Shown here: piece by piece, positions 38,016 to 61,001 of the stretch
Numbering within the stretch: position 1 is the first letter of the stretch
Layout: each line of letters opens with the position of its first letter
NCBI GenBank assembly: GCA_027364875.1
Contig: DAHXON010000003.1
Location: 22,660 to 86,659, forward strand
DNA from: Chloroflexota bacterium
Lineage (GTDB): Bacteria; Chloroflexota; Limnocylindria; Limnocylindrales; CSP1-4
DNA: 64,000 bases
Direction of reading: 5' to 3'
Notes under the pieces: generated by a model
The model's database searches: none
What the model was told of the DNA's origin: nothing
What the model saw: only the letters and a program-made list of their open reading frames with translations
Translations under genes and position numbers: made by a program

Positions 38016-38903
38016 TCAGGACCGCCATCCTCCGTCTCCGGGGTCCCAGGTCGCGGAGTCGACCTCGCCCGAGAGGATGGGGTCCAGCATTCGCGCCGCA
38101 GCTGCGTGGCCCGCACCAAGGTCCGTGTCGAGACCTATTTCGCGGGCCATGCGGGCATAGGGCACGCGCCAGTCAGGCGGCGGGTCCGGCAGCGCCGGCG
38201 GCACCGGCCGGCCCTCCCGACGGGCGAAGGTCCGGTCCAGAGCGACGTGCAGTAGGGCGGCGTCGGGCATTCCTTCCGCGGCGATCAGGGCAAGGTCGAC
38301 GAGATCCTTGACGCGTGTGCTGGGCGTTCGATCGCCGTACCCGCGTGTGTAGGCGTGGACCTTCTCCGCGATCTGGAACTCGAGCGGCACCGCCGCGACC
38401 TCCACGGGCGCCAGCTCGGCGAAGGAGAGCAGGTCGGGTCCGCGCAGTCGCGCGGGCTCGACGTCGGTGGGTGGGTCGAAGCCCACGTCGAGCACGAACT
38501 CGTCGAAGGTACGGCCGGCCAGCTCGGCGGTGACGTGATAGCGAACGGCGGCACCGTCGCGAAGTCGGTCAAGAGCGGTCGTCCGCTCGATCGCGAAGGC
38601 GAAGAAGTCGCCGAGGTCGACGGCCTGGACTGCCAGCAGGTCCGCCGTCGCGGATGCTTCGTCGCCGGCGGCCGCCAGATCGATATCTCTGGTCGTTCGA
38701 GCGTGACTGCCGAACCGATAATCCAGCGCGAGCGCGCCCTTGAGCAGCCAGCGATCCGGCGCTGTCGCCACCAGTCGGGCCAGCAGTCGATCGAATGCGA
38801 CTTCCTTGCGCAGCCGGACAAGCGAGCGGCCCGTCTCCTGGCCGAGCGCGGGCAGCCGCCTCTCCAGTGCCTGGCGGAAGTCGGGCGCGGATTTGTACTT
38901 CAT
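38016..38903 (-). CDS. abiEii: AbiEii-type nucleotidyltransferase toxin
   Basis: 295 aa. The nucleotidyltransferase core is visible: WLLKGALALDYRFGSHARTTRDIDLAAAG (KG motif and the G-S/R-TxDxDL metal site), FRP-like FVLDVGFDP (third Asp region), LEFQIAEKVHAYT (the conserved lysine) and RVKDLVDLALIA. These are the four motifs of AbiEii/MenT toxins, which transfer nucleotides to target RNAs. Its ATG overlaps the antitoxin stop by 4 bp. The pair forms a type IV-like abortive-infection toxin-antitoxin system. Confidence 0.92.
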   Translation of the reverse strand: MKYKSAPDFRQALERRLPALGQETGRSLVRLRKEVAFDRLLARLVATAPDRWLLKGALALDYRFGSHARTTRDIDLAAAGDEASATADLLAVQAVDLGDFFAFAIERTTALDRLRDGAAVRYHVTAELAGRTFDEFVLDVGFDPPTDVEPARLRGPDLLSFAELAPVEVAAVPLEFQIAEKVHAYTRGYGDRTPSTRVKDLVDLALIAAEGMPDAALLHVALDRTFARREGRPVPPALPDPPPDWRVPYARMAREIGLDTDLGAGHAAAARMLDPILSGEVDSATWDPGDGGWRS

Positions 38904-39508
38904 GTCGCGTGGTCCGCCAGGGCTTGGTCGATGAGGCCCTGGACTCGAAGACCCCGCCGTCGCGCAGCTTCGCGCAGTCGGGAGGCTGTCGTCATGCTTC
39001 GATCGAGTGCACCGCGAACTGCCGCCACGACCTGGTCTGGTGCGACCCCGATTTCGGCGACGTCCACGATCGTGCGCTCCGGTCCGGTGACCCGCACGCC
39101 TTTGCGCGAGACGACATCCGCTTCGGCGAGAGGGCGCGTCGACGTGTGGATGACGACGCCGGGCTGCGTCACCAGCCTGCGGCGGATCCTGGGCACCGTG
39201 AGATGCACGGCGTCGGCGATGACGTCGGAGAGCCCCAGGAGCGCGAGCGCCGACTCATGCGAGACAACGGCGTCGGGCGCCGGGCGCCGCCTGGCGGCCA
39301 CGATCTCCTCGTGGGTCTCGCGAGGGTAGTCACGCAGGCGGTAGAGGCCCCTGACCACGCGCAGGAAGCGCCCGCTCTTAGCGTGGTGTGTGAGCAGCGC
39401 CGAACTGAAGCCGCACGCTTGAGCCTGGGCCGTCGTGAAGTAACCTGCCTGCGCGCTGGCTATGGCGAAGAGCGCTTCGTGGTCTGGCGCCTGGGTTATG
39501 TCGTTCAC
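38900..39508 (-). CDS. abiEi: AbiEi-type antitoxin
   Basis: 202 aa. N-terminal winged helix of the AbiEi_4 type (LFAIASAQAGYFTTAQAQACGFSSALLTHHAKSGRFLRVVRGLYRLRDYP) followed by the AbiEi C-terminal domain (VSHESALALLGLSDV to TGPERTIVDVAE). AbiEi proteins repress their own operon and neutralise AbiEii. Expression probably starts in the 130 bp between this gene and the island end. Confidence 0.92.
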   Translation of the reverse strand: MNDITQAPDHEALFAIASAQAGYFTTAQAQACGFSSALLTHHAKSGRFLRVVRGLYRLRDYPRETHEEIVAARRRPAPDAVVSHESALALLGLSDVIADAVHLTVPRIRRRLVTQPGVVIHTSTRPLAEADVVSRKGVRVTGPERTIVDVAEIGVAPDQVVAAVRGALDRSMTTASRLREAARRRGLRVQGLIDQALADHAT

Positions 39509-39640: not shown

Positions 39641-40540
39641 TTGGAGCGGGAGACGGGACTCGAACCCGCCATTCCCAACTTTGCGACAATCAGCCTTCCG
39701 GACACATACCGAGGAATCCTGGAGCGGGCGATCGCGAAGATCTTCCCGAACGCGCCGTCGGCCCCTGCTTATCAGCCTACCAACACGACCGCAGAGCGGG
39801 TGCAACCTGACGACATCCTGGATGCCTTTGACGGCACCGCCGTTGGTCGTGCCGTGGACGCGGTCCTCGATGGAGTAGGTACCTCGAGCAACCTGTCTCT
39901 GCGGGCGTGGGGTCTCCGGGTCTTTCTCCGCTGGGCCCAAGTCGGGGGCGTGGATCTAGGGCTGATCGATGAGGTCGCACTTCGCGAGCGATATCTGCCC
40001 TACCTTCGCGAGCGGTACGCACAGGCGAACGCACCCATGTCGGTCGCTCACCGCCTGCTTGATGCTATCGACGAGATCCGACGAATCGAACCGGGCACCT
40101 TCCCGGCACTTCCGACGAGGCCACAGGCCGTCCGAGTGGTCAAGCCACGACGGACCAGGGGGACGGATCCGATCTACGCCCTTGGCCCCAGCGCGGGCCT
40201 CGGGCTGGCTGTTGCGTCGGTCGTGAAGGATGCTCCATCGGCTGTCCAGATGAAGGTGCGCCGATACGCCGTCGGGCAGTTCCTGACGTGGTGTCAACTG
40301 ACGGGTCGCAACCCTCTCGACGTCACGTTTGAAGACATCGATGGGGCCTTCGATGCCTGGCTCCGTCCGCGCCTCAAGAACTGGGCGGAGGTCAAGGTAC
40401 ATGCCCGCAGTCTGCTTAGGCAGCTGGCATCAGTCCCGCCGCCGGGTGCCACGGATGCCGCCGAGCCGACACCGCAGCCAGTTGTGAGCCCTTCCTCGCT
40501 GTCGGGACCAGCAATTTCCGATGACTGCGCCGGGGCGTAG
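39641..40540 (+). pseudogene. Start-less 3' half of the attP-spanning integrase gene (tandem SAM-like domains)
   Basis: A 299-codon open frame with no start codon of its own except TTG inside the attachment core; a TGA lies three codons before it in chromosomal DNA. The residues ERETGLEPAIPNF come from the core. The body contains two copies of a helical core-binding (SAM-like) pattern as in tyrosine recombinases: SLRAWGLRVFLRWAQVGGVD (about 85-104) and MKVRRYAVGQFLTWCQLTGR (about 205-224). No tyrosine-recombinase catalytic part follows. The frame equals that of the integrase at the other end, so in the excised circle it would be its C-terminal 293 residues. While integrated it is probably silent, or translated weakly from the TTG or an internal GTG. 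Confidence 0.7.
39642..39686. repeat. Left attachment site (attL) with element arm
   Basis: Core TGGAGCGGGAGACGGGA (39642-39658), then element-specific CTCGAACCCGCC and the arm ATTCCCAACTTTGCGA (39671-39686), which is the exact reverse complement of the arm beside the right core. The C at 39659 is the only mismatch to the tRNA copy. Confidence 0.85.
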
Positions 40541-40782
40541 ACGCGTGACCGTCTTCGTCCGATTGGGTTATTGGCGGTGCTCCTTGTCGCCGCTACTCGG
40601 CGATCGGCTCGGACACCCGAATGGGACGGAATCCCTCGTGGATGGGCCATCGATGGTCCACCGAGTCGGGCGTAATGCCTCGAATCGGCCCGAGAGGCCG
40701 GTTGCGCCAAGAGACAGCTGGGAGTCGACTACGTCGGCTGAAAGCCATCCGGCGGAGCAAAGAAGGTCAGGAGGAAGTCGCC

Positions 40783-41301
40783 ATGCGGAATCCACTTACT
40801 GACGCGGAGTCGGAGGAGTCGTTCTTCTACCGATTCGCGGAGTACTACTCACGAAGCCAGAGCATGATGCAGGGGCGTCGCCTGGAGGCGGCCCTCGCGG
40901 GTGGTCGGCCGGTCGGATCATTGCCCGAGGGCTACGCAGTGTCCCAGCGGGGATACGGGGGCAAGCCCATCGCGTGGCAGCCGTCCAAGCCGCTCTCCGA
41001 CATCATCGTTGCCGGGGGCCATCTGCGGCTGGGAGGGGCGACCTATCGCGATCTTGCGGCGTGGGGCAAGACGACAGCGCTCGCGGGCCGCACGCCCAAG
41101 GGCAGCGCGATGACTGCCGCTTGGTGGCGGCGAACGCTGCGCAATCCCAGATATGCTGGCCTTCAGCGGGCGACGCCGTACCTCGGCTACCGCGGCGATG
41201 TGGGTAACGATGCTCGCCGTTCCGCGCGAAACGCAGCGCCGTTGGTGCCCTGTCATCTGCCTCCCCTGTTCACCCGGGAGGAACAGGAACGGATGGCATA
41301 G
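40783..41301 (+). CDS. Recombinase-domain protein lacking the resolvase domain
   Basis: 172 aa from the ATG at 40783, which has GGAGG upstream. It aligns by eye to the middle of the island integrase: LAGGRPVGSLPEGYAVSQRG versus FPLGPLPEGYAVKHRR, and WWRRTLRNPRYAGLQRATPY versus WWRETLSNPKYAGYQMPIEY. It begins where the resolvase domain would end and stops at TAG before the zinc-ribbon and coiled-coil parts. After the TAG the frame stays open for about 50 codons, so the stop may be a mutation. It is either a remnant or a DNA-binding helper of the recombinase. Confidence 0.7.
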   Translation: MRNPLTDAESEESFFYRFAEYYSRSQSMMQGRRLEAALAGGRPVGSLPEGYAVSQRGYGGKPIAWQPSKPLSDIIVAGGHLRLGGATYRDLAAWGKTTALAGRTPKGSAMTAAWWRRTLRNPRYAGLQRATPYLGYRGDVGNDARRSARNAAPLVPCHLPPLFTREEQERMA

Positions 41302-44383: not shown

Positions 44384-44578
44384 ACATGACAGTTGCCCTT
44401 CAACTTCCGAGCTCGCCGACGGCCAGAGATCACGTTATCCAGCCAATGAGGCGGGAGACGTTGGCAATACGCCGACACCACGCGATGTCGAAAGGGCGGA
44501 GTGGCTCAAGGGTCTCCTCCGAGGCCGACTCTGGCCAGGCTGCGAGCCGACGACGCTCCTCCGCGGGAGTTGCACACC

Positions 44579-46915
44579 GTGGCGACTGAAGCAGATACCT
44601 GTCGCAGGTACGTACTTCCCAGACTCTACGAGGCCGGGTGGACCGACGAGCAGATCAGTGAGCAAAGAACTTTCACTGACGGCCGGATCATGGTTACCGG
44701 CGCGAAGGTCTGGCGGCGACCACAGAAGCGCGCGGATTACCTGCTTCGCTACAGGCCGGACTTGATGCTTGCCGTTGTCGAAGCAAAGGCCTCGGACAAG
44801 AGCCCCGGAGACGGCCTCCAGCAAGCCAAGGACTACGCGACGGTTCTGGACCTGAAGTTCGCCTACTCGACGAACGGTCGCGGAATAGTCGAGTTCGACT
44901 TTCTGACCGGGCGTGAAACCATGCTGGAGGCCTTCCCGAAGCCAGATGAGCTCTGGAAACGGCTGCAGCGAACAATAGGGCTGAAGGGTGCAGATCAGGA
45001 GCAGCGGTTCCTTGCGCCGACGCTCCCAATCGCGGGCAAGCCTCTTCGGTACTACCAAGAGATCGCGATAAATCACGTCATTCGCGCATTGTTGGCCGGC
45101 CAACGTCGAGTCCTCGTGAACATGGCCACGGGCACTGGCAAGACCGACGTGGCGTTCCATATCTGCTGGAAGCTGTGGAGTTCCCGTTGGAACCGGACGG
45201 GCGAGCCACGCCGGCCGCGCATGCTATTTCTATCAGATCGCTCGATCCTCGTTGATGATCCCAAAGACAAGCAATTCGCGCCGTTCGGCGACGCCCGATG
45301 GAAGATCCAAGGTGAGGCGATCAAGAGCCGGGAGATGTACTTCGCGACATATCAAGCGATCGCCGAAGACGAGCGCCGGCCCGGTTTGTACCGTGACTAT
45401 CCTCCGGGGTTCTTTGACCTAATCGTCGTGGATGAATGTCATCGTGGGAGTGCACGCGATGAGAGTAATTGGCGGGAAATCCTTGAGTACTTTGCGCCCG
45501 CGTATCAGTTCGGAATGACAGCAACTCCGTTACGCGATGAGAATCGGGATTCCTACGCCTACTTTGGCGACCCCGTGTATTCCTACAGCCTCCGCCAAGG
45601 AATCGACGACGGATTCCTTGCCCCGTATCGGGTACATCGGATCGTGACGGATGTCGATGCGGCAGGTTGGCGACCACTCAGAGACGAGGTGGATCGCTAC
45701 GGACGGCTCATTCCTGACGGCGAGTACGAAACAGCCGACTTCGAGCGGATCGTCGCGCTGCGCGCACGCACACAGGCTATTGCCAAGAGCATCGCGGACT
45801 TTCTTAAAGCGACCGATCCGTACGCCAAGACCATAGTCTTCTGCGTTGACCAAGAACATGCCGACGACATGAGGCGAGCAATCTCCAACGAATGCTCCGA
45901 GTTCGTTCGTGCCCACCCAGACTATGCCGTTCGCGTGGTGTCTGACGAGGGGGATATCGGCAGGGGCCACCTGAGCCGATTCCAGGAACCTGAGGGCGTA
46001 ACCCCGGTCGTTGTCACCACGTCGCGGCTACTGACTACGGGCATCGACGCACCAACGTGCAAGAACATAGTGATCGCTCGGATGGTCGATTCCATGACCG
46101 AGTTCAAGCAGATCATCGGCCGGGGCACGCGGGTCCGGGCCGACCAAGGCAAGCTCTGGTTTTCCATACTCGACTACACCGGCAGCGCTACTCGCCTGTT
46201 CGCCGACCCGGAGTTCGATGGCGATCCAATCGACCCGCCAACCGAGACACCCGTCGATCGCCCGATCCCCCCTCTTGAAGGGATTGGGCCGTACGACTTT
46301 CCCGAGGACGTGCCACCCGAACCCATGGAGGCGTCCCTCCGGAAGCTATACGTTGACGGGGGTTTGGTCGAGATCTCGACCCACATCGTCTACGAACTTG
46401 ACAGTCAGGGTCGACGCCTGCGTGTTGTCCGATACGTCGACTACGCGTCGGAGCACGTTCGTAGCCTTTGGACCACGGCGGCCGACCTTCGGGCTCACTG
46501 GAGCAACGCCGACGAACGCTCCTCCATTGTCGAGTCATTGGAGACTCGAGGCATCAGCCTCGATCAACTGGCGGAGGCCGTTGGCCAACCAGAGGCTGAT
46601 CCTTTTGATCTGCTGTGCTATGTGGCATTCAATGCCCCGCTGCGAACCCGGCGCGAGCGGGCAGAGCAGTTGCGCAGAGGGCGAGGGGATTTCTGGGAGA
46701 GGTTCAAGCCGGAGGCACAAACGATCCTTTCTGAAGTCCTTGAGAAGTATGTGGAACACGGCACAACGCAATTCAAGATCCCGGACATCTTGAAGGTTGC
46801 GCCACTATCCGGTCACGGCAACATACTTGAAATTGCAGAGAAGTTCGGAGGAGCAGACAACCTGCGATCAGCCATCAATAGCATGCAGAGCCTTCTCTAC
46901 AGTGATGCGGCTTGA
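44579..46915 (+). CDS. hsdR: Type I restriction enzyme R subunit
   Basis: 778 aa. I start at GTG 44579 (VATEADTCRRYVLPRLYEAGW), which has GGGAG nine bases upstream and matches the usual N-terminus; the track GTG at 44501 adds 26 residues. Endonuclease site RPDLMLAVVEAKASDK (PD-D/ExK), helicase motif I MATGTGKTDVAF, DEAD-box-like VVDECHRG, motif III GMTATPLRD and motif VI QIIGRGTRVRAD are all intact, then the EcoEI-like C-terminal domain. It translocates and cuts unmethylated DNA with HsdM and HsdS. It overlaps hsdM by 4 bp. Confidence 0.94.
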   Translation: MATEADTCRRYVLPRLYEAGWTDEQISEQRTFTDGRIMVTGAKVWRRPQKRADYLLRYRPDLMLAVVEAKASDKSPGDGLQQAKDYATVLDLKFAYSTNGRGIVEFDFLTGRETMLEAFPKPDELWKRLQRTIGLKGADQEQRFLAPTLPIAGKPLRYYQEIAINHVIRALLAGQRRVLVNMATGTGKTDVAFHICWKLWSSRWNRTGEPRRPRMLFLSDRSILVDDPKDKQFAPFGDARWKIQGEAIKSREMYFATYQAIAEDERRPGLYRDYPPGFFDLIVVDECHRGSARDESNWREILEYFAPAYQFGMTATPLRDENRDSYAYFGDPVYSYSLRQGIDDGFLAPYRVHRIVTDVDAAGWRPLRDEVDRYGRLIPDGEYETADFERIVALRARTQAIAKSIADFLKATDPYAKTIVFCVDQEHADDMRRAISNECSEFVRAHPDYAVRVVSDEGDIGRGHLSRFQEPEGVTPVVVTTSRLLTTGIDAPTCKNIVIARMVDSMTEFKQIIGRGTRVRADQGKLWFSILDYTGSATRLFADPEFDGDPIDPPTETPVDRPIPPLEGIGPYDFPEDVPPEPMEASLRKLYVDGGLVEISTHIVYELDSQGRRLRVVRYVDYASEHVRSLWTTAADLRAHWSNADERSSIVESLETRGISLDQLAEAVGQPEADPFDLLCYVAFNAPLRTRRERAEQLRRGRGDFWERFKPEAQTILSEVLEKYVEHGTTQFKIPDILKVAPLSGHGNILEIAEKFGGADNLRSAINSMQSLLYSDAA

Positions 46916-48459
46916 GGAATACCTTGGCTATCAGGAACCGCTCAGAATCGACTAGTACGACCGCGCAGCAACTCGGCAATCTGATCAAGTCCTGCCGCGA
47001 CATTATGCGCAAGGACAAGGGCCTCAATGGCGATCTCGATCGACTGCCTATGCTGACGTGGGTCCTGTTCCTCAAGTTTCTTGACGACCTAGAGCGCGTT
47101 CGCGAGACCGAAGCACAGCTCGAGGGGCTTGCCTTTCGGCCGGCTATCGAGGCTCCATATCGGTGGCGCGACTGGGCGGCCGCTCCAGACGGAATCACCG
47201 GCGACGCGCTGATCGCCTTCATCAACCAAGAGGAAGCGATCCGGCCAGATGGCACCAAGGGTCCTGGCTTGTTTGCCACTCTCCGCTCGCTGCCGCGTGG
47301 CCAGGGCAATGATCGGCGGGACGTGATCCGAACCGTCTTCGCTGGCACGGCAAATCGCATGCTAAATGGATACCTGTTGCGTGACATGCTCAACAGAGTG
47401 GAGGGTATCCATTTCAACTCTTCCGAGGAGATCTCCACCCTCGGGAGTCTCTACGAGTCCATGCTCAAAGACATGCGCGATGCGGCCGGCGATTCGGGCG
47501 AGTTCTACACACCCCGGGCACTTGTCAAGTTCATCGTCGGCGTGGTTGATCCTCGCCTTGGCGAAACTGTGCTCGATCCTGCGTGCGGGACGGGCGGCTT
47601 CCTAACGGAGTCGTTCGAGCACATTCGACGCCAATGCCGAACTGCCGAGGATCAACGGCTTCTGCAGGAACACACGATATCTGGTGTAGAGGCGAAATCT
47701 CTACCGTACTTGCTGTGCCAGATGAATCTGCTCCTCCACGGCCTTGAATCACCAAACATCGACCCGCTCAACGCGCTCCGCCATAAGCTCGGGGAGATTG
47801 GAGACGCTCAACGGGTCGACGTTATCCTCACGAATCCGCCTTTTGGGGCTGAGGAACAACGTGGGATCCTGGGGAATTTTCCAGCGGATAAGCAGACTAC
47901 CGAAACAGCACTTCTGTTCCTGCAACTAATCATGCGTCGGTTGAACCGGGGAGCGAAACCCGGGCGGGCCGCGCTGATCGTGCCGAATGGCATACTTTCG
48001 AGCGACGGAATCGGAGCTCGCGTGAAGGAAGAGCTAGTCCGTGGCTTCAACCTCCACACCATTGTTCGCCTGCCCAATGGCGTCTTCTCGCCGTACACGC
48101 CCATACCAACGAATGTCATGTTCTTCGACCGGTCGCGTCCAACCGAGGACATCTGGTACTACGAGTTGGGGTTGCCGGACGGTCGCAAGAACTACACCAA
48201 GACAAGGCCACTTCGCTTGGAAGAGTTTGCTGATTGCGTCAGTTGGTGGACGCAGCGGGTCGAGAGTGACCGCGCCTGGAAGGTGTCGGCAGACGACGTA
48301 GTCGCGGATGGATGCAATCTGGATCGTACGAATCCAGCGAGAAAGGTGGACTTCGAGCACATTCCGGCAGAGGAACTAGTGGACGACATCCTGCTGAAGG
48401 AGCAGCGGATTGCTGCGATAGTCGACGAAATCAGGACTCAGTTGAGCCACATGGCATGA
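46912..48459 (+). CDS. hsdM: Type I restriction enzyme M subunit (N6-adenine methyltransferase)
   Basis: 515 aa. The N-terminal HsdM domain (LTWVLFLKFLDDLE) is followed by the SAM-binding motif VLDPACGTGGFLTESFEH and the catalytic motif VILTNPPFGAEE (NPPF, N6-adenine). The TTG start overlaps the hsdR stop as TTGA, and the stop overlaps hsdS by 4 bp, so all three subunits are translationally coupled. It methylates host sites and forms the core of the complex. Confidence 0.95.
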   Translation: MRNTLAIRNRSESTSTTAQQLGNLIKSCRDIMRKDKGLNGDLDRLPMLTWVLFLKFLDDLERVRETEAQLEGLAFRPAIEAPYRWRDWAAAPDGITGDALIAFINQEEAIRPDGTKGPGLFATLRSLPRGQGNDRRDVIRTVFAGTANRMLNGYLLRDMLNRVEGIHFNSSEEISTLGSLYESMLKDMRDAAGDSGEFYTPRALVKFIVGVVDPRLGETVLDPACGTGGFLTESFEHIRRQCRTAEDQRLLQEHTISGVEAKSLPYLLCQMNLLLHGLESPNIDPLNALRHKLGEIGDAQRVDVILTNPPFGAEEQRGILGNFPADKQTTETALLFLQLIMRRLNRGAKPGRAALIVPNGILSSDGIGARVKEELVRGFNLHTIVRLPNGVFSPYTPIPTNVMFFDRSRPTEDIWYYELGLPDGRKNYTKTRPLRLEEFADCVSWWTQRVESDRAWKVSADDVVADGCNLDRTNPARKVDFEHIPAEELVDDILLKEQRIAAIVDEIRTQLSHMA

Positions 48460-49655
48460 CCAAGGCGCTGACCAGAGTCCGCTTTGGGGAGTTTCTCCGA
48501 CCCAATAGCAGGCCATACACCTTGGGGCCGGCGGAAGATGCAAATCTGGTCGGCATGAGGCTGTATGGCGCTGGACCGTTTCATCGTGAGCTCAAGCTTG
48601 GGGCGCATATCGCCAAGAAGACACACTTCGTTGTCAGGACCGGAGATGTCATCTACAACAAGTTGTTCGCCTGGAAGGGCACGTTCGGGGTTGTCCCGCC
48701 GAGCCTCGAGGGAATGCTCGTTTCTGACAAGTTCCCGACGTACGCGCTCGACGAGACGGTGGTCGACCCCCAGTACCTGCAATGGTTCTTCCGTTGCCCG
48801 CCACTGTGGGAACAAGCGCGTGCGATGTCCACGGGGTCTGCGGCGGTCTCGAAGCTAACGCTGAACCCGCCGAAATTCCTGCTCCTCGAAATTCCGTTGC
48901 CGACCTCCTTAGAGGAACAACGGCAAGTTGTGTCGCATCTGAATGGCCTGGCGGCGCAGATCGCGGAGGCTAGAGGCTTGCGAGAACGGGCTATCCGAGG
49001 ACGAGACGCGTTGATGGCCTCAGCGCTGGAAAGCCGGCTTCGGTCAATCCCGGTAACCGCCAGACTCGCTCACTATTTGGTCGCACCGCCGCGGAACGGG
49101 TGGTCTCCCAGGTGCGATAACACCGAGGGGGGCACCGCCGTGCTGTCGTTGGGAGCCGTCACCGGGTTCAGGTATCGTGCGACGGAGTTCAAGAGAACGT
49201 CCTTGCCTGTCCGTGAAGAGGCGCACTACTGGCTTCGGCCAGGCGACTTGCTGATTACCCGCAGCAACACGCCAGATCTCGTTGGGCACGCCGCGATCTA
49301 TAGCGGCACCCCAAACCCTTGCATCTACCCTGACCTGATGATGAAGCTGCAGGTTCGCGAACAAGACGCCGATCCGCGCTTCGTTTGGTACTGGCTCCAA
49401 TCGTCCGTCGTGCGGGAGTTCGTGGCACGCAATGCCAAAGGAACGAGCCCCACGATGAAGAAGATCTCCCAGCGCATTGTTTCTCAGATCCCGTTCCCAG
49501 TTCTGAGCCTGGCCGAGCAACAGCGCATAGTGTCCGAACTCGACACGCTCCAAACTCAAGCTGACCAACTGAAACGCCTTCAGGAAGAGACAGGCACCGA
49601 ACTCGACGCCTTGATGCCTTCGCTGCTGAGCCGCGCCTTTGGCGGGGAGCCCTGA
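48456..49655 (+). CDS. hsdS: Type I restriction enzyme S subunit
   Basis: 399 aa from ATG 48456. Two target-recognition domains (about residues 1-150 and 195-345) are separated by matching conserved coiled regions: SLEEQRQVVSHLNGLAAQIAEARGLRER and SLAEQQRIVSELDTLQTQADQLKRLQEE. KTHFVVRTGDVIYNKLFAW and YWLRPGDLLITRSNTPD are the corresponding TRD motifs. It sets the DNA sequence recognised. Its TGA shares one base with the next ATG, so the following unknown gene is coupled to the system. Confidence 0.93.
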   Translation: MTKALTRVRFGEFLRPNSRPYTLGPAEDANLVGMRLYGAGPFHRELKLGAHIAKKTHFVVRTGDVIYNKLFAWKGTFGVVPPSLEGMLVSDKFPTYALDETVVDPQYLQWFFRCPPLWEQARAMSTGSAAVSKLTLNPPKFLLLEIPLPTSLEEQRQVVSHLNGLAAQIAEARGLRERAIRGRDALMASALESRLRSIPVTARLAHYLVAPPRNGWSPRCDNTEGGTAVLSLGAVTGFRYRATEFKRTSLPVREEAHYWLRPGDLLITRSNTPDLVGHAAIYSGTPNPCIYPDLMMKLQVREQDADPRFVWYWLQSSVVREFVARNAKGTSPTMKKISQRIVSQIPFPVLSLAEQQRIVSELDTLQTQADQLKRLQEETGTELDALMPSLLSRAFGGEP

Positions 49656-51829: not shown

Positions 51830-54800
51830 CTATTCCAGATCCAATTCAACGACAAGGCCGGCCTTTTTGATTCCAGTAATCGTGAGGCTGCCGTCCTCGC
51901 CCCAGTCGAGCGTTTCAAGCGGATCGGCGATGATCCGAACCTGTGTCTGATAGCCCTTTTCGAGCCCCGTGACGATGGCGAGGAAGAACTCGCCGCGCTT
52001 CGCGACCTGTGCGCGCTTTGCTTCGTGCGCGGTGAGTGATACCGAGTCCCCGCCGATTCCATAGCTCGCCTTGATCTCGAAGAACCGGCCGACGTCATCG
52101 ACCACGTCAGCACCCAACCGGCGTATTGCCCGGAAATCCGTGGCCGTTCGCCCTGCGGTGAGGAGCACTTGGCGTAGCACATCCAAGGCGGCCGTTTCCA
52201 GGTCCTGGTCGGTATAACCACGCGGAGCGGCGCGGCTCGTTGGGCCAGCGCCGGAGGTCGTCGAGGTCTTCGCGGGCACACCACGGAGGACGATGCCGTG
52301 GCTGGTCGATGGCTTCTGAGTCCGTTCAGCCGCCGGTGAGACGATTTCCCAGCGGATCACGTCCAATTCGCTCGTGCCCTTGAGCTCACGCACCGGGACC
52401 GGCTGCTCGTTCTCACGATCGTCTCGTGACGCGGATGGATGGCCGCGCGAATTCGCTGCCGGAACCTTCGTCAGGCTCTCGAAGACCCGACCGCGACGCT
52501 TTCCTTTGGCTAGATCTCCTGCGATCCCACTCAGGACAATGTCCCCACTTGTGTCTTCGCTCGGGAGGTCGAGCGCGTTGGCGGCTTCCCCTCGTACGGC
52601 GAGTCGCCAAGCAGCGCCCCAGGCCAGGGCGACCTTCTCTCGGTCGAGGCCTCGGCCGCCTGAGTCCGTCGCCTCGAAGATCGCGGATACTGCCCGACCG
52701 GCTGTTTCGTCTGACCCGGCCTCGTCGGGAGACGCCAAGCAAAACATTACGGGCAGCGGTTCCGGCCTGACATGCGCTCGGGCCGGCACCACGAACGATT
52801 CCTCAGCGATTTGGACCTCAAGAGCTAGACGTGGAGTGACCACCACCCTGGCTCGTTCGAAGGCGTCCCATCCGATAGAGTTGGCCCGGTAGAGTCCCGG
52901 GTCGTTCCGCTGGAGCCGCGCCTTGAGGTGGCGAACCGCGGCCGCGAATGTCGGCTGTAACTCCTTGCCGTCCTGGACCGCGTGTGGGCCAATACCGCAG
53001 GGTACAAACGCGGTACGCCTGAGCACATGGACACCGAGGGCCTTTGGAAGGCCTTCAAGCGATGCCAGCGACGCTGGCGAGTGCCACGTGGGGAGTTGTC
53101 CTTCCAGTGCTGCAGTAAGACCGGGATCATCGACTGCATATACGGGTCGACTGGTTACCCAGCCGGATCCGTCCCACAGGGGGACGTGCAGGAGCGCCTC
53201 ACGATCACTCATATCAGCGGCGGCCAAATGCTTGGCTATGTGCCGGTAGACGTCGACGAGGAGGGCGTCGTCTTGTCCGTCAGGCTGGCCGTCTGCCACC
53301 TCTGAGAGGACCTTGATGCAGTCCCCGATAGAAGGGACCTGAATGTTGAGGACCTCCCAGAGACGATCCGACCGAGTCCGATCAGGAACGAATGCTCTCC
53401 GCTTGCCGAAGATAGGAGGGCCTCGGAAGACGCCGTTCGGAGGCAGCCACCGGGCACCCGCGAGAATCAGGCCAGCCTTGTCTGTCGCGATGCCAAACTT
53501 TGCGCGAACCTGACCGACAGTAAGGTCATCTATTCGTCGATCAGGAGCGATCGGACCGTCGAGGGAGGCCGCGTGTTGCCCCAGGGCATCGTAGAGAATG
53601 GCCGCGTCGCGCGCGACTGAGCGGCCCGCTTCCCCTTTCCGCCGGAGGTCGGTCAGCGCGTCGATAATCCGGCTGGCGTGAGGAAAGGTCTGGACTCCAA
53701 GCGCCTCCAGGACGTGAGCGTGGCCGTCCATCCCTGCGAACTCGGCACCGTACAGCGAGTTGTTCGGGCCGAACGCGTCAAGCATGCTCGTGGACTGAAA
53801 TGCCAGCTGCCGCGGAGCCTTGGCGCGCCCGAACTTGTTGCTGAGCCAGGGTTCGCTCATGAGGATGGATCGCCAAGATGACGGAACGTCACCCACGCGA
53901 TTCCAGTCGTAATGCGGATACACCGCTTTGGCGACGCAATTGTCCGCGTAGAGGCGGGTCCATGCGCGAGCGATCGTCCTCAGAAGCGCCTCCGACCTGG
54001 GCCGTCTGAGCTTCACGCTCTTCTTGACCAGATCCGCGACGACGGCCACCAGCTCGGGCGAATCCCAATCGTCCTGAAGATGAGTGGCGTACCCGCGAAG
54101 CGAGGCTATGGCGTCGTTCTGCGCCGCACCTGATGAAGGACGAATCCGGAATGCAATTTCGTGATAACGAGGCTCCGCGTATTTTTGCGGTGGCGGGCTC
54201 AGCCGCGGGGCCGTTTCAGCTCCCAACAAGGTGAAGAAGGCGCGAGCACCCGGAGTCTTCTCGTCGGCTTCAGGTCGCGGCTGGTCAGGGCTTTGCAGCA
54301 ATTCCCGATACCGGCCGTGGATCCAGCTGATCCCTGGGGTCCGCTCCGCCGCCCGCGCCCAGCTGTCGCGGCCGCTCCCATCAATGGTCGCCGAGAGGTA
54401 AGCATCACACGGTCGGACTTCTGATGGGACGCGCTTCGATCCAGACCACTCGAAGCCGGCAACGCGAACCTGCTGGCCGATGAGGGGGCCGAGACGCCGT
54501 CGGGACTCCAGGTCAATCCCATAGATCGCGTTGCGAAGCGCCGCGATTTGAGCGTCGTCCAGGTCTCGAGGCTGCGGGCCACCTCTACCTAGTTGCTCGA
54601 GCGCCTCCAGGTCGCTGAGCCCGTCGCGTAGGCGGTCCCTCCTCTTCAGCCACGCCCGAACTTCTTTGGCTGGGGCATCGTCTTCGAGGTAGGCGTCATC
54701 GACTATCTTCACCAGCCCTAGCTCGGCCGCCAAGCCTGTGGCCTGCTGGCTGGACGTCAAAACGAATCCGTCTGTGGGTAGTGGAGGTCGAGTTCTAGTG

Positions 54801-56395
54801 CCGTTGGTGAGGCGAACCGACCATGATGAATCCAGCTTTGGTTCCAGTTTCGCGGCAAGCCCGGCTGCGGCAATCCGGACACACCAGCGGCCTGTGCGTG
54901 GCCCGAGCTTTGCCCCATTCCATCCAAACATCGAGACAGCGTCCGTCACCGTGAGGATCTGAGATACCGCAAGGTCGTCGAGTACCCTCCGCCATCGACC
55001 GCCGACGCCCCGTAGCTGCGTGGGCACGGGCACATGCCCTGGGCTCAGCTCGATCTGGTCTGCCTCGCTCAGCAGGCCCTCCACCGCGGAGGCTTCGTAG
55101 ACCAGTTTCGCAACTGAGACATCGCGACCATCGATCTTGAGCCGGAGCCGTTTCGCAATGTCGCGTTGTGCTGTTTCCACTGTGCCCTTGAGTTGCCCTG
55201 CAAGCCAGGGATCGGTCGCAGATGTTCCTTCGACCGCGAGAGGCACCCAACGCCAGGCGTCAGCAGCCGCGATGTCGAACTGCCAGAGTGCCGTTGAGCT
55301 GGCCAAGTCTGCCGATCGCTGGAAGAGCCACTCGTTCCACCGGATGTGTTGGATCCGCACCCTCGCCGTATCTGGATCAAATTGAGCGTTGAGGTTGAAC
55401 GGCAATCTCGATTCAACGCGCAATGGCAGTCCGGCAAAGAGCCGCCCGACTGGCTCCGTCGTGCCTGCGGCTATGGAGACGGGCGTCGTTGGACCAGTAG
55501 CCTTACCGGTTCGAGCGAGGTTCTTCGGAACCGGGAACTCGACCGTCACACGCGTCCAGGTTGCTCGGGTTCGTCGGTCCCGAACCGCTACCACGACGGC
55601 ATTTAGTGGACCGCGCGGGCCCGCGAGGGCAACGGATCTGGCGGGGCCGCGCGACAGATCGTGCGATGCGATCCGCTTGGCCCGCCTCGACAAGTCCATG
55701 AGTTGTACCGAGCCAACCGTGTCTAGGAAGAGGAGGTGTGCCGCATCAAGGCTCTTGAACCACGCTCGGAAATCCTCTTCGTCGAACCCCGCTCTAAGGC
55801 TCATCCGAAACAACGTGTCCCCGGACTTCGGGTCGTAGAAGCCTGGAATCTCCGCCGCGGCGGCAATGCTGCGGGGCCCGTGCCCACCGACCACGAAGTG
55901 ATACGGAGTGCAATGAACCTGAAGGTTCGATCCCAGCCGTGCGAGGGTCTTGAGACCAATCCCGAACCGGCCTTTGCTGGCCGCGTCCTCGGCTTTTGTC
56001 GTAAGGAACGCGAAAGACATAGCGACGACGTGCCGCAAGAGGACACGGCCGCCATCGTGCACCACGAGCAGTTCGGGTCCATCCGCCTTGCGCCTAATTG
56101 CGATTCGGACCGCTGTGGCTCCGACATCGTCAGCGTTCTGGATGATCTCGATGAGACCGTGGAACTCCTCCACGTTCAGCTGGCTGGCACCATGCGTAGC
56201 GCCCCGAAGGATCTGGCGCACAAGCCCTTGTGCCGCAAAGTGGCTGCTGATCGCGTCGACGGCCGCCCGCGCGAACTCCAGCGAGAGTCGCTCATCGAAG
56301 ACCGCGTCGTCAGTGCCGCTCTCGAGAATCGCCCGGGCTGCCGCGCGACCAAGTTCGGCATCGGTCGCCGGCGAGGTCTCCGCCCCTGTTTCCAT
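51830..56395 (-). CDS. Giant sacsin-like GHKL ATPase with C-terminal DUF3883
   Basis: About 1521 aa from METGAETSPAT, which has AAGGGG upstream; the 1625-aa track ORF begins inside the divergent gene. The N-terminal Hsp90/sacsin-type ATPase shows ELIQNADD-like GLIEIIQNADDVGAT, VVHDGGRVLLRHV and GRFGIGLKTLARLG. A long middle region of no recognised fold follows. The C-terminal 110 residues are DUF3883 (FRAIRRLGADVVDDVGRFFEIKASYG), a nuclease-like domain with the FEIKAS strand in the place of a PD-D/ExK ExK. Proteins of this design recur in defence islands, so an anti-phage role is likely. Confidence 0.83.
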   Translation of the reverse strand: METGAETSPATDAELGRAAARAILESGTDDAVFDERLSLEFARAAVDAISSHFAAQGLVRQILRGATHGASQLNVEEFHGLIEIIQNADDVGATAVRIAIRRKADGPELLVVHDGGRVLLRHVVAMSFAFLTTKAEDAASKGRFGIGLKTLARLGSNLQVHCTPYHFVVGGHGPRSIAAAAEIPGFYDPKSGDTLFRMSLRAGFDEEDFRAWFKSLDAAHLLFLDTVGSVQLMDLSRRAKRIASHDLSRGPARSVALAGPRGPLNAVVVAVRDRRTRATWTRVTVEFPVPKNLARTGKATGPTTPVSIAAGTTEPVGRLFAGLPLRVESRLPFNLNAQFDPDTARVRIQHIRWNEWLFQRSADLASSTALWQFDIAAADAWRWVPLAVEGTSATDPWLAGQLKGTVETAQRDIAKRLRLKIDGRDVSVAKLVYEASAVEGLLSEADQIELSPGHVPVPTQLRGVGGRWRRVLDDLAVSQILTVTDAVSMFGWNGAKLGPRTGRWCVRIAAAGLAAKLEPKLDSSWSVRLTNGTRTRPPLPTDGFVLTSSQQATGLAAELGLVKIVDDAYLEDDAPAKEVRAWLKRRDRLRDGLSDLEALEQLGRGGPQPRDLDDAQIAALRNAIYGIDLESRRRLGPLIGQQVRVAGFEWSGSKRVPSEVRPCDAYLSATIDGSGRDSWARAAERTPGISWIHGRYRELLQSPDQPRPEADEKTPGARAFFTLLGAETAPRLSPPPQKYAEPRYHEIAFRIRPSSGAAQNDAIASLRGYATHLQDDWDSPELVAVVADLVKKSVKLRRPRSEALLRTIARAWTRLYADNCVAKAVYPHYDWNRVGDVPSSWRSILMSEPWLSNKFGRAKAPRQLAFQSTSMLDAFGPNNSLYGAEFAGMDGHAHVLEALGVQTFPHASRIIDALTDLRRKGEAGRSVARDAAILYDALGQHAASLDGPIAPDRRIDDLTVGQVRAKFGIATDKAGLILAGARWLPPNGVFRGPPIFGKRRAFVPDRTRSDRLWEVLNIQVPSIGDCIKVLSEVADGQPDGQDDALLVDVYRHIAKHLAAADMSDREALLHVPLWDGSGWVTSRPVYAVDDPGLTAALEGQLPTWHSPASLASLEGLPKALGVHVLRRTAFVPCGIGPHAVQDGKELQPTFAAAVRHLKARLQRNDPGLYRANSIGWDAFERARVVVTPRLALEVQIAEESFVVPARAHVRPEPLPVMFCLASPDEAGSDETAGRAVSAIFEATDSGGRGLDREKVALAWGAAWRLAVRGEAANALDLPSEDTSGDIVLSGIAGDLAKGKRRGRVFESLTKVPAANSRGHPSASRDDRENEQPVPVRELKGTSELDVIRWEIVSPAAERTQKPSTSHGIVLRGVPAKTSTTSGAGPTSRAAPRGYTDQDLETAALDVLRQVLLTAGRTATDFRAIRRLGADVVDDVGRFFEIKASYGIGGDSVSLTAHEAKRAQVAKRGEFFLAIVTGLEKGYQTQVRIIADPLETLDWGEDGSLTITGIKKAGLVVELDLE

Positions 56396-56556
56396 CCGCC
56401 TGCCCCTTCGCATCCCATCTACGCGGGTGCTGCCGCCAGTATCGACAGTTGTCGGTCGCGATGTTGGACGCTGGGGCCAGCGGATTCGCACCTGGGCGTT
56501 AGTAACCCGGTATGGACTCCGGCGTAATATCAGGACTCGTGCGGGAAGGGGGAGCA

Positions 56557-57465
56557 GTGAGGTATTCGCGACAGGAGCAACTCCCGGCCAGTCAACCTCG
56601 ACCGGGGATTGGGCAGCCGAGTGAGTTTCTGATGCTCGTGAAGACCTACCCGGTCCCGAGCAAGAAGTATGGCGAGACCGTCTGCTGCGCCGGCGTGGAC
56701 GCGGCAACCGGGCGTTGGATTCGAATGTACCCGGTCAACTTCCGATCACTAGCCGAGTATTCGAAGTTCAACAAGTGGCAGTTCATCCAGGCCGCTTGGA
56801 CCGCCTCCGCCGATGACAGCCGTCCAGAATCTCGCCGGGTTCTTCAGGACACGATCCGGGCTGGCCGTTGGCTGCCAGCCGGTAAAGGTTGGGCGGAGCG
56901 ACGGCGATGGCTCGATCCTCTGCTCGACCAGTCGATCGAGGCACTGCGGCTTGAGAACCTGGCGACGGGGAAGTCTCTTGGCGTCATCCGACCTCGATCA
57001 ATCCGGCGATTCGTCATCGAGCGGACAAGTGGTTGGGATCCCGAAAGTCGCGCAAGCCTGGTCCAGCTCAGCCTCGATTGGACGAGCTCAGCCACCCCGA
57101 CAACCGGCCTCGAGATCCTGCCGTACGACTTCTTTTATGAGTTCGACTGTGATGACGAGAGCTGCCACGGCCACCGTATGGAGGTCTTCGACTGGGAGCT
57201 CGGGCAGGCGTTTCGCAGGTTCCGCGCGATGTATGGGCCCAAGGGGTGGGAGGACAAACTGCGACAGAAGTACGAAACGGAGCTTCCGTCCCGTGACCTG
57301 CACTTACTTTTGGGCACCCACCATCGTTGGGCGAACTGGCTGATCGTTGGAGTCGTCGCCCCGCCTCACGCGGAGATGGCTAAAGGCAAGCGGCGCACGA
57401 CGCGCCAGTTCATCGGAGAGGGGGAGTCGATGACACTCCCGCTCGTCGGCTTCGAAACAAAGTAG
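56557..57465 (+). CDS. Island protein of unknown function with CxxxxC-GH motif
   Basis: About 302 aa from GTG 56557 (AAGGGGGA upstream); ATG 56512 is the longer option and MLVKTYPVPS the shorter. No family name recognised. Seen: LVKTYPVPSKKYGETVCCAGVD, WIRMYPVNFRSL, then FYEFDCDDESCHGHRMEVFDWELGQAFR, a possible zinc site, and a conserved-looking tail LLLGTHHRWANWLIVGVVAPP. It is divergent from the giant ATPase gene and its last 162 bp lie antisense to the end of a DUF488 gene. Confidence 0.65.
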   Translation: MRYSRQEQLPASQPRPGIGQPSEFLMLVKTYPVPSKKYGETVCCAGVDAATGRWIRMYPVNFRSLAEYSKFNKWQFIQAAWTASADDSRPESRRVLQDTIRAGRWLPAGKGWAERRRWLDPLLDQSIEALRLENLATGKSLGVIRPRSIRRFVIERTSGWDPESRASLVQLSLDWTSSATPTTGLEILPYDFFYEFDCDDESCHGHRMEVFDWELGQAFRRFRAMYGPKGWEDKLRQKYETELPSRDLHLLLGTHHRWANWLIVGVVAPPHAEMAKGKRRTTRQFIGEGESMTLPLVGFETK

Positions 57466-57801
57466 CGCTATCTGATCTCGTCGAGATCGGTTGGCGACGC
57501 GACCGAGTGCGTCCTCTGCCTCCCCAAGCAGCAGCCGGTATTGGGCTACAAATGTCTCGCGGTCGGTCGTCGCGAGCGGTCGGTATCGCTTCGGCACGCC
57601 CAGCGATGGCTCCCAGCTGTACTCGATCTGTGCGCCCTGGAGGGTCTCCTTCAGTCGACGCTGCCGATACTCAGGCCGTCGGGAGGTCGGGTTGGCGCGC
57701 GTATCGACAACGACCTTGACGCCGTGGATTCTCAGGGTATCGACAAACGCCGCCTCATCAGCGCGCTGGTAGCCGATCGTGAAGGCGAGCCTTGGTGTCA
57801 T
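57304..57801 (-). CDS. DUF488-family protein
   Basis: 165 aa from ATG 57801; the 325-aa track ORF extends falsely upstream. Typical DUF488: FTIGYQRADEAAFVDTLRIHGVKVVVDTRANPTSRRPEY at the N-terminus and ALLCFEADERECHRLPLSDELARR, the conserved C-F-E...CHR motif. Function in the family is unknown, though such genes recur in mobile and defence islands. The CFE-CHR region lies inside the 162-bp antisense overlap with the plus-strand gene. Confidence 0.82.
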   Translation of the reverse strand: MTPRLAFTIGYQRADEAAFVDTLRIHGVKVVVDTRANPTSRRPEYRQRRLKETLQGAQIEYSWEPSLGVPKRYRPLATTDRETFVAQYRLLLGEAEDALGRVANRSRRDQIALLCFEADERECHRLPLSDELARRAPLAFSHLRVRRGDDSNDQPVRPTMVGAQK

Positions 57802-57835
57802 TACGAAGAAGCCTACGGGCCGGCATGGGTCGTGG

Positions 57836-58228
57836 TCAAACGGTTGTGTCGGCCGTCGGCGAGCTGACAAGGTCGCGCGTCTCCTGTCGGGCGTCCCACC
57901 GACACTCCAGCCGAAGCTCGGCAGGCAGTTCGTCCAATCGGACGAGTTCCTTGACGTACGCCTCCCGGCATAGAGAGCAAGGCGTTCGTTCGTAGCCGAC
58001 CAACAAGGCTGGGACAAGCGCCGGCGATCCTTGACTCTCAACAACATGTCGGAGCCCCAGCCCCAGCGCATGGAGGGCTTCTCGATCCTGTTGGAGAAGC
58101 CTCTCGACGAGAGCTTCGTCCCCGGCCTCCCAGTTGGTGGCCAGCAGTCCGATGGAGCGCCTCGGGCGCAAATCCTCCGGCGATCCCAGCGCGGAGGCCC
58201 ACGAGGTGGGTAATAGACGGTCCCCCAT
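57836..58228 (-). CDS. Small protein resembling the C-terminus of HEAT-repeat proteins
   Basis: About 130 aa from MGDRLLPTSW. Its second half (RTPCSLCREAYVKELVRLDE then ELRLECRWDARQETRDLV) resembles the C-terminal tail of HEAT-repeat proteins known from GC-rich bacteria. It lies 34 bp before the DUF488 gene on the same strand, probably one operon. No ribosome binding site is obvious, and it may be the surviving 3' end of a longer gene. Confidence 0.55.
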   Translation of the reverse strand: MGDRLLPTSWASALGSPEDLRPRRSIGLLATNWEAGDEALVERLLQQDREALHALGLGLRHVVESQGSPALVPALLVGYERTPCSLCREAYVKELVRLDELPAELRLECRWDARQETRDLVSSPTADTTV

Positions 58229-58403
58229 GTGAGTGACAAACGACGGTCGCTTCGGAAGTTTGGTTTGGCGTCCGCACGCACAATCGCCGGTCAAACAGGC
58301 TCCAATCAGGTGATTTCGGTCTCGAAACCGTTTCCGAGGCCGTTGCGCTTTCGAGTGCCAAGAAGTCAACTACGCCGCAGCAGTTCTACGGACTTGCGGA
58401 GGT

Positions 58404-58613
58404 GTGGACAAGGTAATGGTGATGCGCTTCGAAAGCTCTGAGGATGTCGTAAATCTCGCCCGATTGCGTGTCGAGATGGAATCATCTTCAAGTCACGACA
58501 GCGCCGCACTCCACCAGGTGGCGCGAGCGATCGCGGTTATCTTGCACAGTGACCACCAGCGCCAGTCTCCCGATATCTGCGCGAGCGCAACCGAAAGGAG
58601 AACAGAGGAATGA
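58404..58613 (+). CDS. Small ORF coupled to the degenerate resolvase gene
   Basis: 63-69 aa depending on start; ATG 58422 (MRFESSEDVVNLARLRVEM) has AAGG at a good distance, GTG 58404 touches a GGAGG. Its TGA overlaps the next ATG by 4 bp. The sequence is one amphipathic helix followed by a polar tail; no family recognised. Tight coupling argues that it is expressed, perhaps as a leader or a small helper of the recombinase module. Confidence 0.45.
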   Translation: MDKVMVMRFESSEDVVNLARLRVEMESSSSHDSAALHQVARAIAVILHSDHQRQSPDICASATERRTEE

Positions 58614-59223: not shown

Positions 59224-60990
59224 ATGACGACCCGGCAAGACCTCATTAGGAGTACGTGGACCGCACTGGTGGCGTTCTGGACCAGTTGGGTTGCGTCACT
59301 TCCGGTACATGATGACTGGCGGTTCGGGGCGGTGTATGTTCGCGAAAGCCATGCCGAATCGCTTGAAGGCCGGCAACCAGAAATCCAGCTGGCCATCGTC
59401 CTAGAAATCTACCGAGCGAGACACATATATGTTCGGCTAGAGAACATCTACTTCGACAACGTCTCGGCCAAGAGCTTGGAGGGTCGCATTCAATTCGGGC
59501 GGCTCCTCGAAGATGCAGAGGCGGGGCAGTTTGCCTTCGTTGCGGCCTTCGAAGCAGATCGGCTCTTCCGAAGCGTCGATGACGCCACGAGCGTGACTCG
59601 CCGCCTGGCTCAGGCTGGTGTCCAGCTGCTGTGGTCTGGCAAGCAGGAGAGCGACTGGCTCAATCCGGCCAACTGGATGGCAGATCACATGGTTCATGCA
59701 CTGTCCGAGCACGTAAGTAGGACCACTAGCTACAAAGTCGGCACCGACCTGGCCGCCAGCAGCAAGAACGGGTTTCCTTTAGGCCCCCTTCCCGAGGGTT
59801 ACGCGGTAAAACACCGGAGGGATACCCTCAAGGGTCGGTTGGGGCCGCCCGAGTCGTGGGAGCGGGTCGAACCGCTTGCCACGATCATCGTTCAGGGCAG
59901 GGACCGGTATGTGAAGGGGGGCAGCATCAAGGATCTAGCAAGCTGGGCCGAGGAGACTGAACTTCACGGACTTACGCCTGCTGGGAAGCAGATGGGTCGG
60001 TCGTGGTGGCGCGAGACGCTGAGCAACCCGAAGTATGCCGGCTATCAGATGCCGATCGAATATCGTGGTTTCAGCCAGGACGTTGGCCACCGACCGCACC
60101 ACCGCGGGCTGGTAGTCGCAGATCTGGTCCCTTGCCAGCTCCCGGCGTTGTTCACGCTTGAGGAGTTCCTCGAGACCCGGAGGGTCATGGCGCAGCGGGC
60201 ATGGAAGTCGCCAGGCCGCCGCTCGCCCAAGCTGAGCCCCCTGTCGTCCCTTGTCGTTGACGCCCGATGCCTGCGCGATCCAGCCCTGGCCAAGCTCAAT
60301 CACCGGATGCACGTATTGTCGCGGGCTAAGGACGGCTGTCTGAGGGCGAAATGCGCCTCAGCTTGTGAGTCGCGCACCAAGCACCCCGCGTCGAGTTTCA
60401 TTCTCGCGGACATCGAACAGGACGTCTGCGACCTGGTTGCCAATCTCCGCTTCGATGACCCACGCCTCCGCGCGGAGATCGAGCGTGAGTTAAGGGCCTT
60501 CGACGAGGCACCCGTGCCACCCGTCAATGCGCCCCGCGAGCACGAGATCGCTCGGTATATGAGGATCATCAAGGACTCCGACTCCGAAGGCGACAAGGCG
60601 ATCCGGAACCTTGCGGAGCAGAAGCTCGCCGAGCTGAGAGAGGAGAAGGCTCGCGACGAGGAGGGTCGGACCGTCCAGCGCTTTCGCGACTCTGTCGAGG
60701 ATTTGTCCAGGTGGCCCGAGATTTGGTCCCGTTCTTCCCCGGCCGACCAGAACGCCCTCCTGCGGGCCGCCGTCGATCGGATCGTCGTAGAGCCGCTGGG
60801 CAGACTTCCGCGCGGTGCGACTCAGCCGATTGGAGCCCGCCCACGCGCGGCTCGGATCATCGAGATAGTCCCCAAGGACCCTGTCATAGGGGTCGCGATC
60901 GCGACTAGGCTCGCAAAGTTGGGAATGGAGCGGGAGACGGGATTCGAACCCGCGACATTCTGCTTGGGAAGCAGACACTCTGCCAGCTGA
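59224..60990 (+). CDS. Large serine integrase, gene crosses the attachment site
   Basis: 588 aa as integrated. Resolvase domain (about 33-150) with catalytic Ser42 in YVRES and the DRLFRS motif; recombinase domain (about 180-320: PLPEGYAVKHRR, WWRETLSNPKYAG); a cysteine cluster where a zinc ribbon is expected (about 355-395, CLRAKCASAC); a charged coiled region (about 430-520). The last codons MERETG are the attachment core and FEPATFCLGSRHSAS is read from the tRNA gene. In the excised circle the same frame would run on into the ORF at 39641-40540. It probably drives integration of the island. Confidence 0.88.
   Translation: MTTRQDLIRSTWTALVAFWTSWVASLPVHDDWRFGAVYVRESHAESLEGRQPEIQLAIVLEIYRARHIYVRLENIYFDNVSAKSLEGRIQFGRLLEDAEAGQFAFVAAFEADRLFRSVDDATSVTRRLAQAGVQLLWSGKQESDWLNPANWMADHMVHALSEHVSRTTSYKVGTDLAASSKNGFPLGPLPEGYAVKHRRDTLKGRLGPPESWERVEPLATIIVQGRDRYVKGGSIKDLASWAEETELHGLTPAGKQMGRSWWRETLSNPKYAGYQMPIEYRGFSQDVGHRPHHRGLVVADLVPCQLPALFTLEEFLETRRVMAQRAWKSPGRRSPKLSPLSSLVVDARCLRDPALAKLNHRMHVLSRAKDGCLRAKCASACESRTKHPASSFILADIEQDVCDLVANLRFDDPRLRAEIERELRAFDEAPVPPVNAPREHEIARYMRIIKDSDSEGDKAIRNLAEQKLAELREEKARDEEGRTVQRFRDSVEDLSRWPEIWSRSSPADQNALLRAAVDRIVVEPLGRLPRGATQPIGARPRAARIIEIVPKDPVIGVAIATRLAKLGMERETGFEPATFCLGSRHSAS
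60911..60953. repeat. Right attachment site (attR) with element arm
   Basis: Arm TCGCAAAGTTGGGAAT (60911-60926) runs into the core TGGAGCGGGAGACGGGA (60926-60942), which is the 3' end of tRNA-Gly and is continued by chromosomal TTCGAACCCGC. With the left arm it forms a perfect 16-bp inverted repeat around the joined core. Confidence 0.85.
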
Positions 60991-61001
60991 GTTACTCCCG
61001 C
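60926..61001 (-). tRNA. tRNA-Gly (anticodon CCC)
   Basis: Read on the minus strand: acceptor GCGGGAG pairs with CTCCCGC, D-arm CTCAGCTGGCAGAG, anticodon stem TCTGC/GCAGA with loop TTCCCAA (anticodon CCC), T-arm GCGGGTTCGAATCCCGT, discriminator T and an encoded CCA. All stems pair. The gene is intact in spite of the island, because the element restores its 3' end. The integrase frame reads through its 3' half on the other strand. Confidence 0.93.

Follow-up and report, generated by a model that had tools for sequence, protein, structure and literature searches.

The question raised by this locus is how a 21-kb island came to end at a tRNA-Gly gene, and which recombinase recognises its ends. 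In this study we analysed 64,000 nt of the genome of a Chloroflexota bacterium (CSP1-4; assembly GCA_027364875.1, contig DAHXON010000003.1, positions 22,660-86,659 of the forward strand), hereafter the window. We consider it very likely that the two ends of the element are the P' and P halves of the attP of a large serine integrase, which is encoded at the right end of the island.

Element ends and empty site

The sequence ATTCCCAACTTTGCGA at 39671-39686 recurs as its exact reverse complement TCGCAAAGTTGGGAAT at 60911-60926, an inverted match of 16 bp, or of 18 bp if two core bases are included (39669-39686 / 60911-60928). These are the only two exact copies of the arm in the 64-kb window, and they stand precisely at both ends of a repeat; with 0.26 matches expected in 64 kb of shuffled sequence, even when up to three mismatches are allowed, such an arrangement is not due to chance. 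The repeat itself is direct and 28 bp long, TGGAGCGGGAGACGGGA[C/T]TCGAACCCGC, with copies at 39642-39669 (attL) and 60926-60953 (attR), both given on the plus strand, and its sole mismatch is C at 39659 versus T at 60943. The right copy forms the 3' end of the target gene, tRNA-Gly(CCC), which lies on the minus strand (61001..60926) and is restored by the element end. T60926 is used twice, as the final base of the arm and as the initial base of the repeat.

Joining the ends conceptually yields a 60-bp site with exact inverted arms around 28 bp. A first-pass annotation of this DNA had claimed such a site with perfect 16-bp inverted arms, and both sequences and coordinates bear it out; the length that it gave for the centre is correct, but the composition is 27 repeat bases plus C39670. 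The symmetry centre, which it had placed in the GGGA of the core before the C/T mismatch, agrees with the axis that we find between 39656 and 39657, within the GGG preceding A39658. Delimited by this axis, and by the attL/attR repeat, the arms and the empty site in relatives, the integrated element extends from 39657 to 60940 (21,284 bp). The attL copy accordingly divides into a B half (39642-39656, the original tRNA-Gly 3' end) and a P' inner half (39657-39669, with C at 39659), which the P' outer arm (39669-39686, plus strand) continues. In attR, 60926-60940 is the element-derived tRNA end and the remainder is chromosomal; the P outer arm (60911-60928, plus strand) is the exact reverse complement of 39669-39686. 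The same annotation had concluded from the exact arms that they were once adjacent. The arms are indeed exact at the element ends, but their likeness does not require former adjacency, because one dimer must bind both.

Uninterrupted tRNA-Gly loci of related genomes, a comparison that the first-pass annotation had itself suggested, support this delimitation. Same-genus genomes carry tRNA-Gly(CCC) without an interruption. In G015 (locus L023) the tRNA directly adjoins a 42-bp stretch that is 90% identical to the window's left flank; G014 and G010 carry the same left flank beside the tRNA at 83-84% identity. None of the island-free same-genus loci has either arm beside tRNA-Gly, the arrangement that the first-pass annotation had named as contrary to its reading. 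The polymorphic base is T in all same-genus empty sites and C in attL, so this C came from the element, and with C39659 derived from the element the crossover should lie left of the mismatch, within 39642-39658, a stretch that includes the axis. We infer that strands are exchanged at the central GG dinucleotide (39656-39657 in attL, plus strand), to which the axis points and which would be the same in relatives.

Exact inverted repeats that face inward at both element ends could also be the terminal inverted repeats of a transposon, with the 28-bp repeat as its target duplication. A repeat that is a tRNA end and carries a fixed difference, C in no empty site, is unlike a target duplication, however, and relatives of the element occupy the same point of several tRNA genes, in tandem arrays that share one core. 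A transposase was recognised in none of the ten largest element ORFs scanned. We regard a transposon as a scarcely credible explanation.

The integrase and its half-sites

The large serine integrase gene (59224..60990, plus strand) abuts attR, and its frame runs through attR into the antisense strand of the tRNA, where the tail reads ...GMERETGFEPATFCLGSRHSAS. Its product contains a resolvase domain (PF00239, E=1.2e-12), and a weak match to the PF07508 recombinase domain falls below the cut-off (E=0.0021). In an alignment with relatives Y38-R40-S42 (the catalytic YxRxS), R113 and R116 are invariant. The family profile matches the solved structures of SPbeta YokA, PhiC31, TP901-1 and A118/LI integrase; YokA is matched over most of its length, and the A118/LI C-terminal domain structures are matched at E=0.003. 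An AlphaFold model of the window integrase was poor (pLDDT 45) and was left unused. The first-pass reading that a serine integrase acts at this site is thus supported by the presence beside attR of a large serine recombinase whose catalytic residues are intact, on a contig from which tyrosine integrases (PF00589) are absent.

Most tRNA islands use tyrosine integrases (PMC4383910), and it might be asked whether one of these inserted the island by a crossover in the T-loop, the arms being its core- or arm-type binding sites and the serine recombinase a passenger. A 28-bp tRNA repeat is typical of such islands (25-76 bp in PMC8092301) and the genome has six tyrosine integrases, all of them, however, outside the window's contig. 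Moreover, the symmetry axis lies beside the T-loop, not in it, and the same axis is found again next to other serine integrases, whose genes border on different tRNA genes; the repeat there ends at GG. On these grounds insertion by a tyrosine integrase seems very improbable.

Insertion by the serine integrase also agrees with what is known of half-sites in this class. In the A118/LI integrase half-site the RD contacts positions 1-12, positions 13-15 are linker and positions 16-24 form the ZD motif, and RD regions tend to be common to attP and attB (PMC3783163). In the window the identity of attP and attB extends over positions 0-14 to one side of the axis and 0-12 to the other, apart from a single mismatch (position 2); positions 12-29 are taken up by the exact arms, which are absent from the empty sites. 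Under the known half-site numbering the part shared by attP and attB therefore coincides with the RD positions and the exact arms with the linker and ZD motif. The core on the P side must match the tRNA because the element end restores the gene. The P' side need not match it, and in the tRNA-Asp relatives described below there is no match past GG; attP and attB agree at 12 of 13 bases towards the tRNA interior, a longer identity than needed. The ZD motif expected ~5 bp further inward in attB is not clear to the eye, with a weak similarity at positions 11-19. The fit to the size and symmetry of known serine integrase attP sites, which the first-pass annotation had asserted, holds with the qualification that the exact arms reach position 29, slightly past the 25-bp A118 half-site.

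Like the A118/LI-type large serine integrases, the window's system has a pseudo-palindromic attP of ~50-60 bp, a short central dinucleotide and an integrase gene adjoining attP, and attP and attB share the RD region while the outer arms are distinct at linker and ZD positions (PMC3783163). It differs from them in its target, a tRNA gene, in arms that are exact to position 29, in a long attP/attB identity that restores the tRNA, and in an integrase frame that runs through attP. In the circular form an integrase dimer would bind the 60-bp palindrome, its recombinase domains contacting the tRNA-like interior (positions 0-12) and its linker and zinc-ribbon domains the outer arms (12-29). The attP would have recombined with the 3' part of tRNA-Gly through a cut at the central GG in the T-stem, and the element's own tRNA end would have restored the interrupted gene.

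Relatives at other tRNA genes

A single-protein query of GTDB contigs found no close relatives of the window integrase, and an alignment query of the same contigs recovered only a tRNA-Asp group. No integrase relatives were found in viral contigs, and phages and plasmids gave one weak match each. The tRNA-Asp group consists of integrases from genomes in the same class, ~25-34% identical, whose genes run up to a tRNA-Asp gene (G056, G406, and G058, which has two elements in tandem). Here the repeat is just 14 bp long, GCGGTCCCGACCGG, the tRNA 3' end, and the shared identity stops on a GG that matches the window's axis exactly (G followed by GATTCGAA). A second group (query G059) comprises 13 integrases in 11 genomes; ten of them overlap an annotated tRNA 3' end (Pro, Arg or Val). 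Each of the remaining three is found either where a contig ends or at a tandem junction bearing the tRNA-Pro core.

Besides that of the window, eight attPs could be reconstructed (four Asp, three Pro, one Arg), and all are symmetric about the same tRNA point. When P and P' were compared with the axis fixed at this tRNA position, positions 13-24 showed 12 (window), 10, 6, 11, 11, 9, 6, 7 and 9 matches per 12. All nine sites together give 81/108 in-register matches versus ~27 in other registers, and none of 200,000 random-register draws reached 81; without the window the figures are 69/96 versus ~24, again with 0/200,000 draws, although the elements are related and so not fully independent in this statistic. 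The G058a and G030 sites are weak taken singly, and the G406 and G030 pairs join different contigs. The P' half on G030 contig C24 was assigned to the C37 element solely on arm similarity; C24 as a simple attL was rejected, as it sits behind a second integrase gene. The attL partners of G022, G026, G019, G421, G215, G016 and G058 (tRNA-Val) were absent from the contigs examined or asymmetric.

Judged from these sites, a Chloroflexota clade of large serine integrases sits at tRNA 3' ends and uses one fixed T-stem point in several tRNA species, namely Gly, Asp, Pro, Arg and probably Val.

Several relatives form tandem arrays at one tRNA gene (L116/L117 in G011:C53, L043/L044 in G058:C51 and L106 in G030:C24). 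The junctions of such stacks are thus natural instances of a tRNA core flanked on either side by a P-type arm. On the tRNA-interior side, the attBs of tRNA-Gly, -Asp and -Pro have T at half-site position 2, but all P' half-sites reconstructed at Gly, Asp or Pro have C or G there (39659 in attL; L066 in G030:C24), even where the inner P' region otherwise comes close to copying the tRNA.

The integrase frame across attP

In the integrated form attR and the antisense strand of the tRNA supply the C-terminal residues of the window integrase. Conceptual joining of the ends leaves the integrase frame open across attP in all nine elements. This frame, an addition to what the first-pass annotation saw, would place attP within the integrase reading frame, so that integration swaps the integrase C-terminus. 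In the joined form the stop comes 23-30 codons past the core in six relatives, after ~28 codons in G034 and after 8 in G011. In the window the joined frame continues for 289 codons past the core into the ORF 39641-40540 (plus strand), which starts at attL when the element is integrated and may be a separate gene or an extension of the integrase; this ORF has one relative only, at E=6e-4. The four tRNA-Asp elements share an in-frame motif made up of HGV or DGV and, after it, a DL-type helix. Their core is read in different frames by two groups, and the offsets cancel only when the ends are joined.

The extension of the closest pair shows a coding-like substitution pattern, with a pN/pS of 0.28 and 3/1/9 differences beyond the arm at codon positions 1/2/3. 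In distant pairs pN/pS of the extension is about 0.8-1.2; values near 1 indicate loose constraint. The joined tails end in GAA, GAA, GVA, ASA, VAA, LAT, DLA and ITS in the relatives, in AGA in the window and in TSA at a further tandem junction (L107). Alanine is thus the last residue in eight of ten tails versus 13% of 189 long ORFs, a comparison that is post hoc and phylogenetically non-independent.

It is a real possibility, to which we give somewhat less than an even chance, that the attP is a true serine-integrase site and the open frame an accident of GC-rich sequence, the tail swap being without consequence. At 65-72% GC an open frame of 20-30 codons is a common occurrence, the distant pairs show no purifying selection on the extension, and the window's 289 codons stand against 8-30 in the relatives. 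Yet an accident does not readily account for a frame open in nine of nine joined sites, for an Asp motif that is in frame only in the joined form although the core frames differ, or for the codon-position bias of the closest pair. A functional role of the frame, as an integration-dependent switch, is more speculative, and we propose it tentatively. Integration would replace the tail of the circular form, which ends in a short and often degron-like sequence, by a tail encoded on the antisense strand of the tRNA, and excision would restore the original; the loss of the circle's tail might change the stability or activity of the integrase.

Comparison with known systems

The tail ends resemble the -AA degradation signals of integration-dependent immunity in mycobacteriophages, where attP also lies inside a phage gene and integration removes a C-terminal tail, in some cases with such a signal (PMC8092301). 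The altered protein there is the repressor, whereas in the window it is the integrase, and an effect on its stability is hypothetical. An attP inside the integrase coding sequence is known from phage Mx8 IntP and from archaeal SSV-type elements (PMC6070905, PMC4383910, PMC8371274); integration changes the integrase C-terminus in Mx8 and splits the gene in SSV. These enzymes are tyrosine recombinases with a C-terminal active site, whereas the window integrase, a serine recombinase, is unrelated to them and carries its catalytic domain at the opposite, unaffected end. It works like Mx8 and SSV in having a frame that spans attP, yet it is not a member of their class. The literature searched, which omits most subscription journals, yielded no serine integrase gene that spans its attP.

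With respect to the target, serine integrases were not known to Islander to target tRNA genes (PMC4383910), and Ghinet et al. describe tRNA genes as rare targets of such enzymes, with phage RSM1 and Mycobacterium AICEs as their examples (PMC3218068). The word tRNA does not appear in the main text of a large LSR survey (PMC10083194). RSM1 (tRNA-Ser) and the AICEs (tRNA-Leu) are alike in that a serine recombinase integrates at a tRNA 3' end (PMC3218068, PMC3816273). The Int of RSM1, however, has been described as a small, resolvase-like serine recombinase, and its attP lies between ORF14 and ORF15, outside int; for the AICEs the likeness is one of descriptions, not of site sequences. The site itself belongs to a known kind, to which the tRNA-targeting clade and the attP-spanning integrase frame add a variant. 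Serine integrases are prized tools for genome engineering, and as tRNA genes are conserved landing sites, enzymes of this clade could be portable tools. An attP in a serine integrase's own gene would, if true, be a self-contained directionality switch.

Neighbouring genes

A second serine integrase is split between the element ends. Its right part (58610-59047) holds the catalytic domain only, 35% identical to residues 14-135, and its left part (40621-41301) the recombinase-domain part only, 40% identical to residues 139-314. In the circular form these halves would flank the module of integrase, attP and ORF, as though an older integrase gene had received the module as an insertion. The cargo resembles a defence island (44501-49655, 51830-56707 and 57304-58281), with type I restriction-modification genes (HsdR, HsdM, HsdS), a 1625-aa HATPase protein and a DUF488 protein. 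Just left of attL, at 38016-39508, two adjacent minus-strand genes have the look of an AbiE-type toxin-antitoxin pair when their translations are read by eye.
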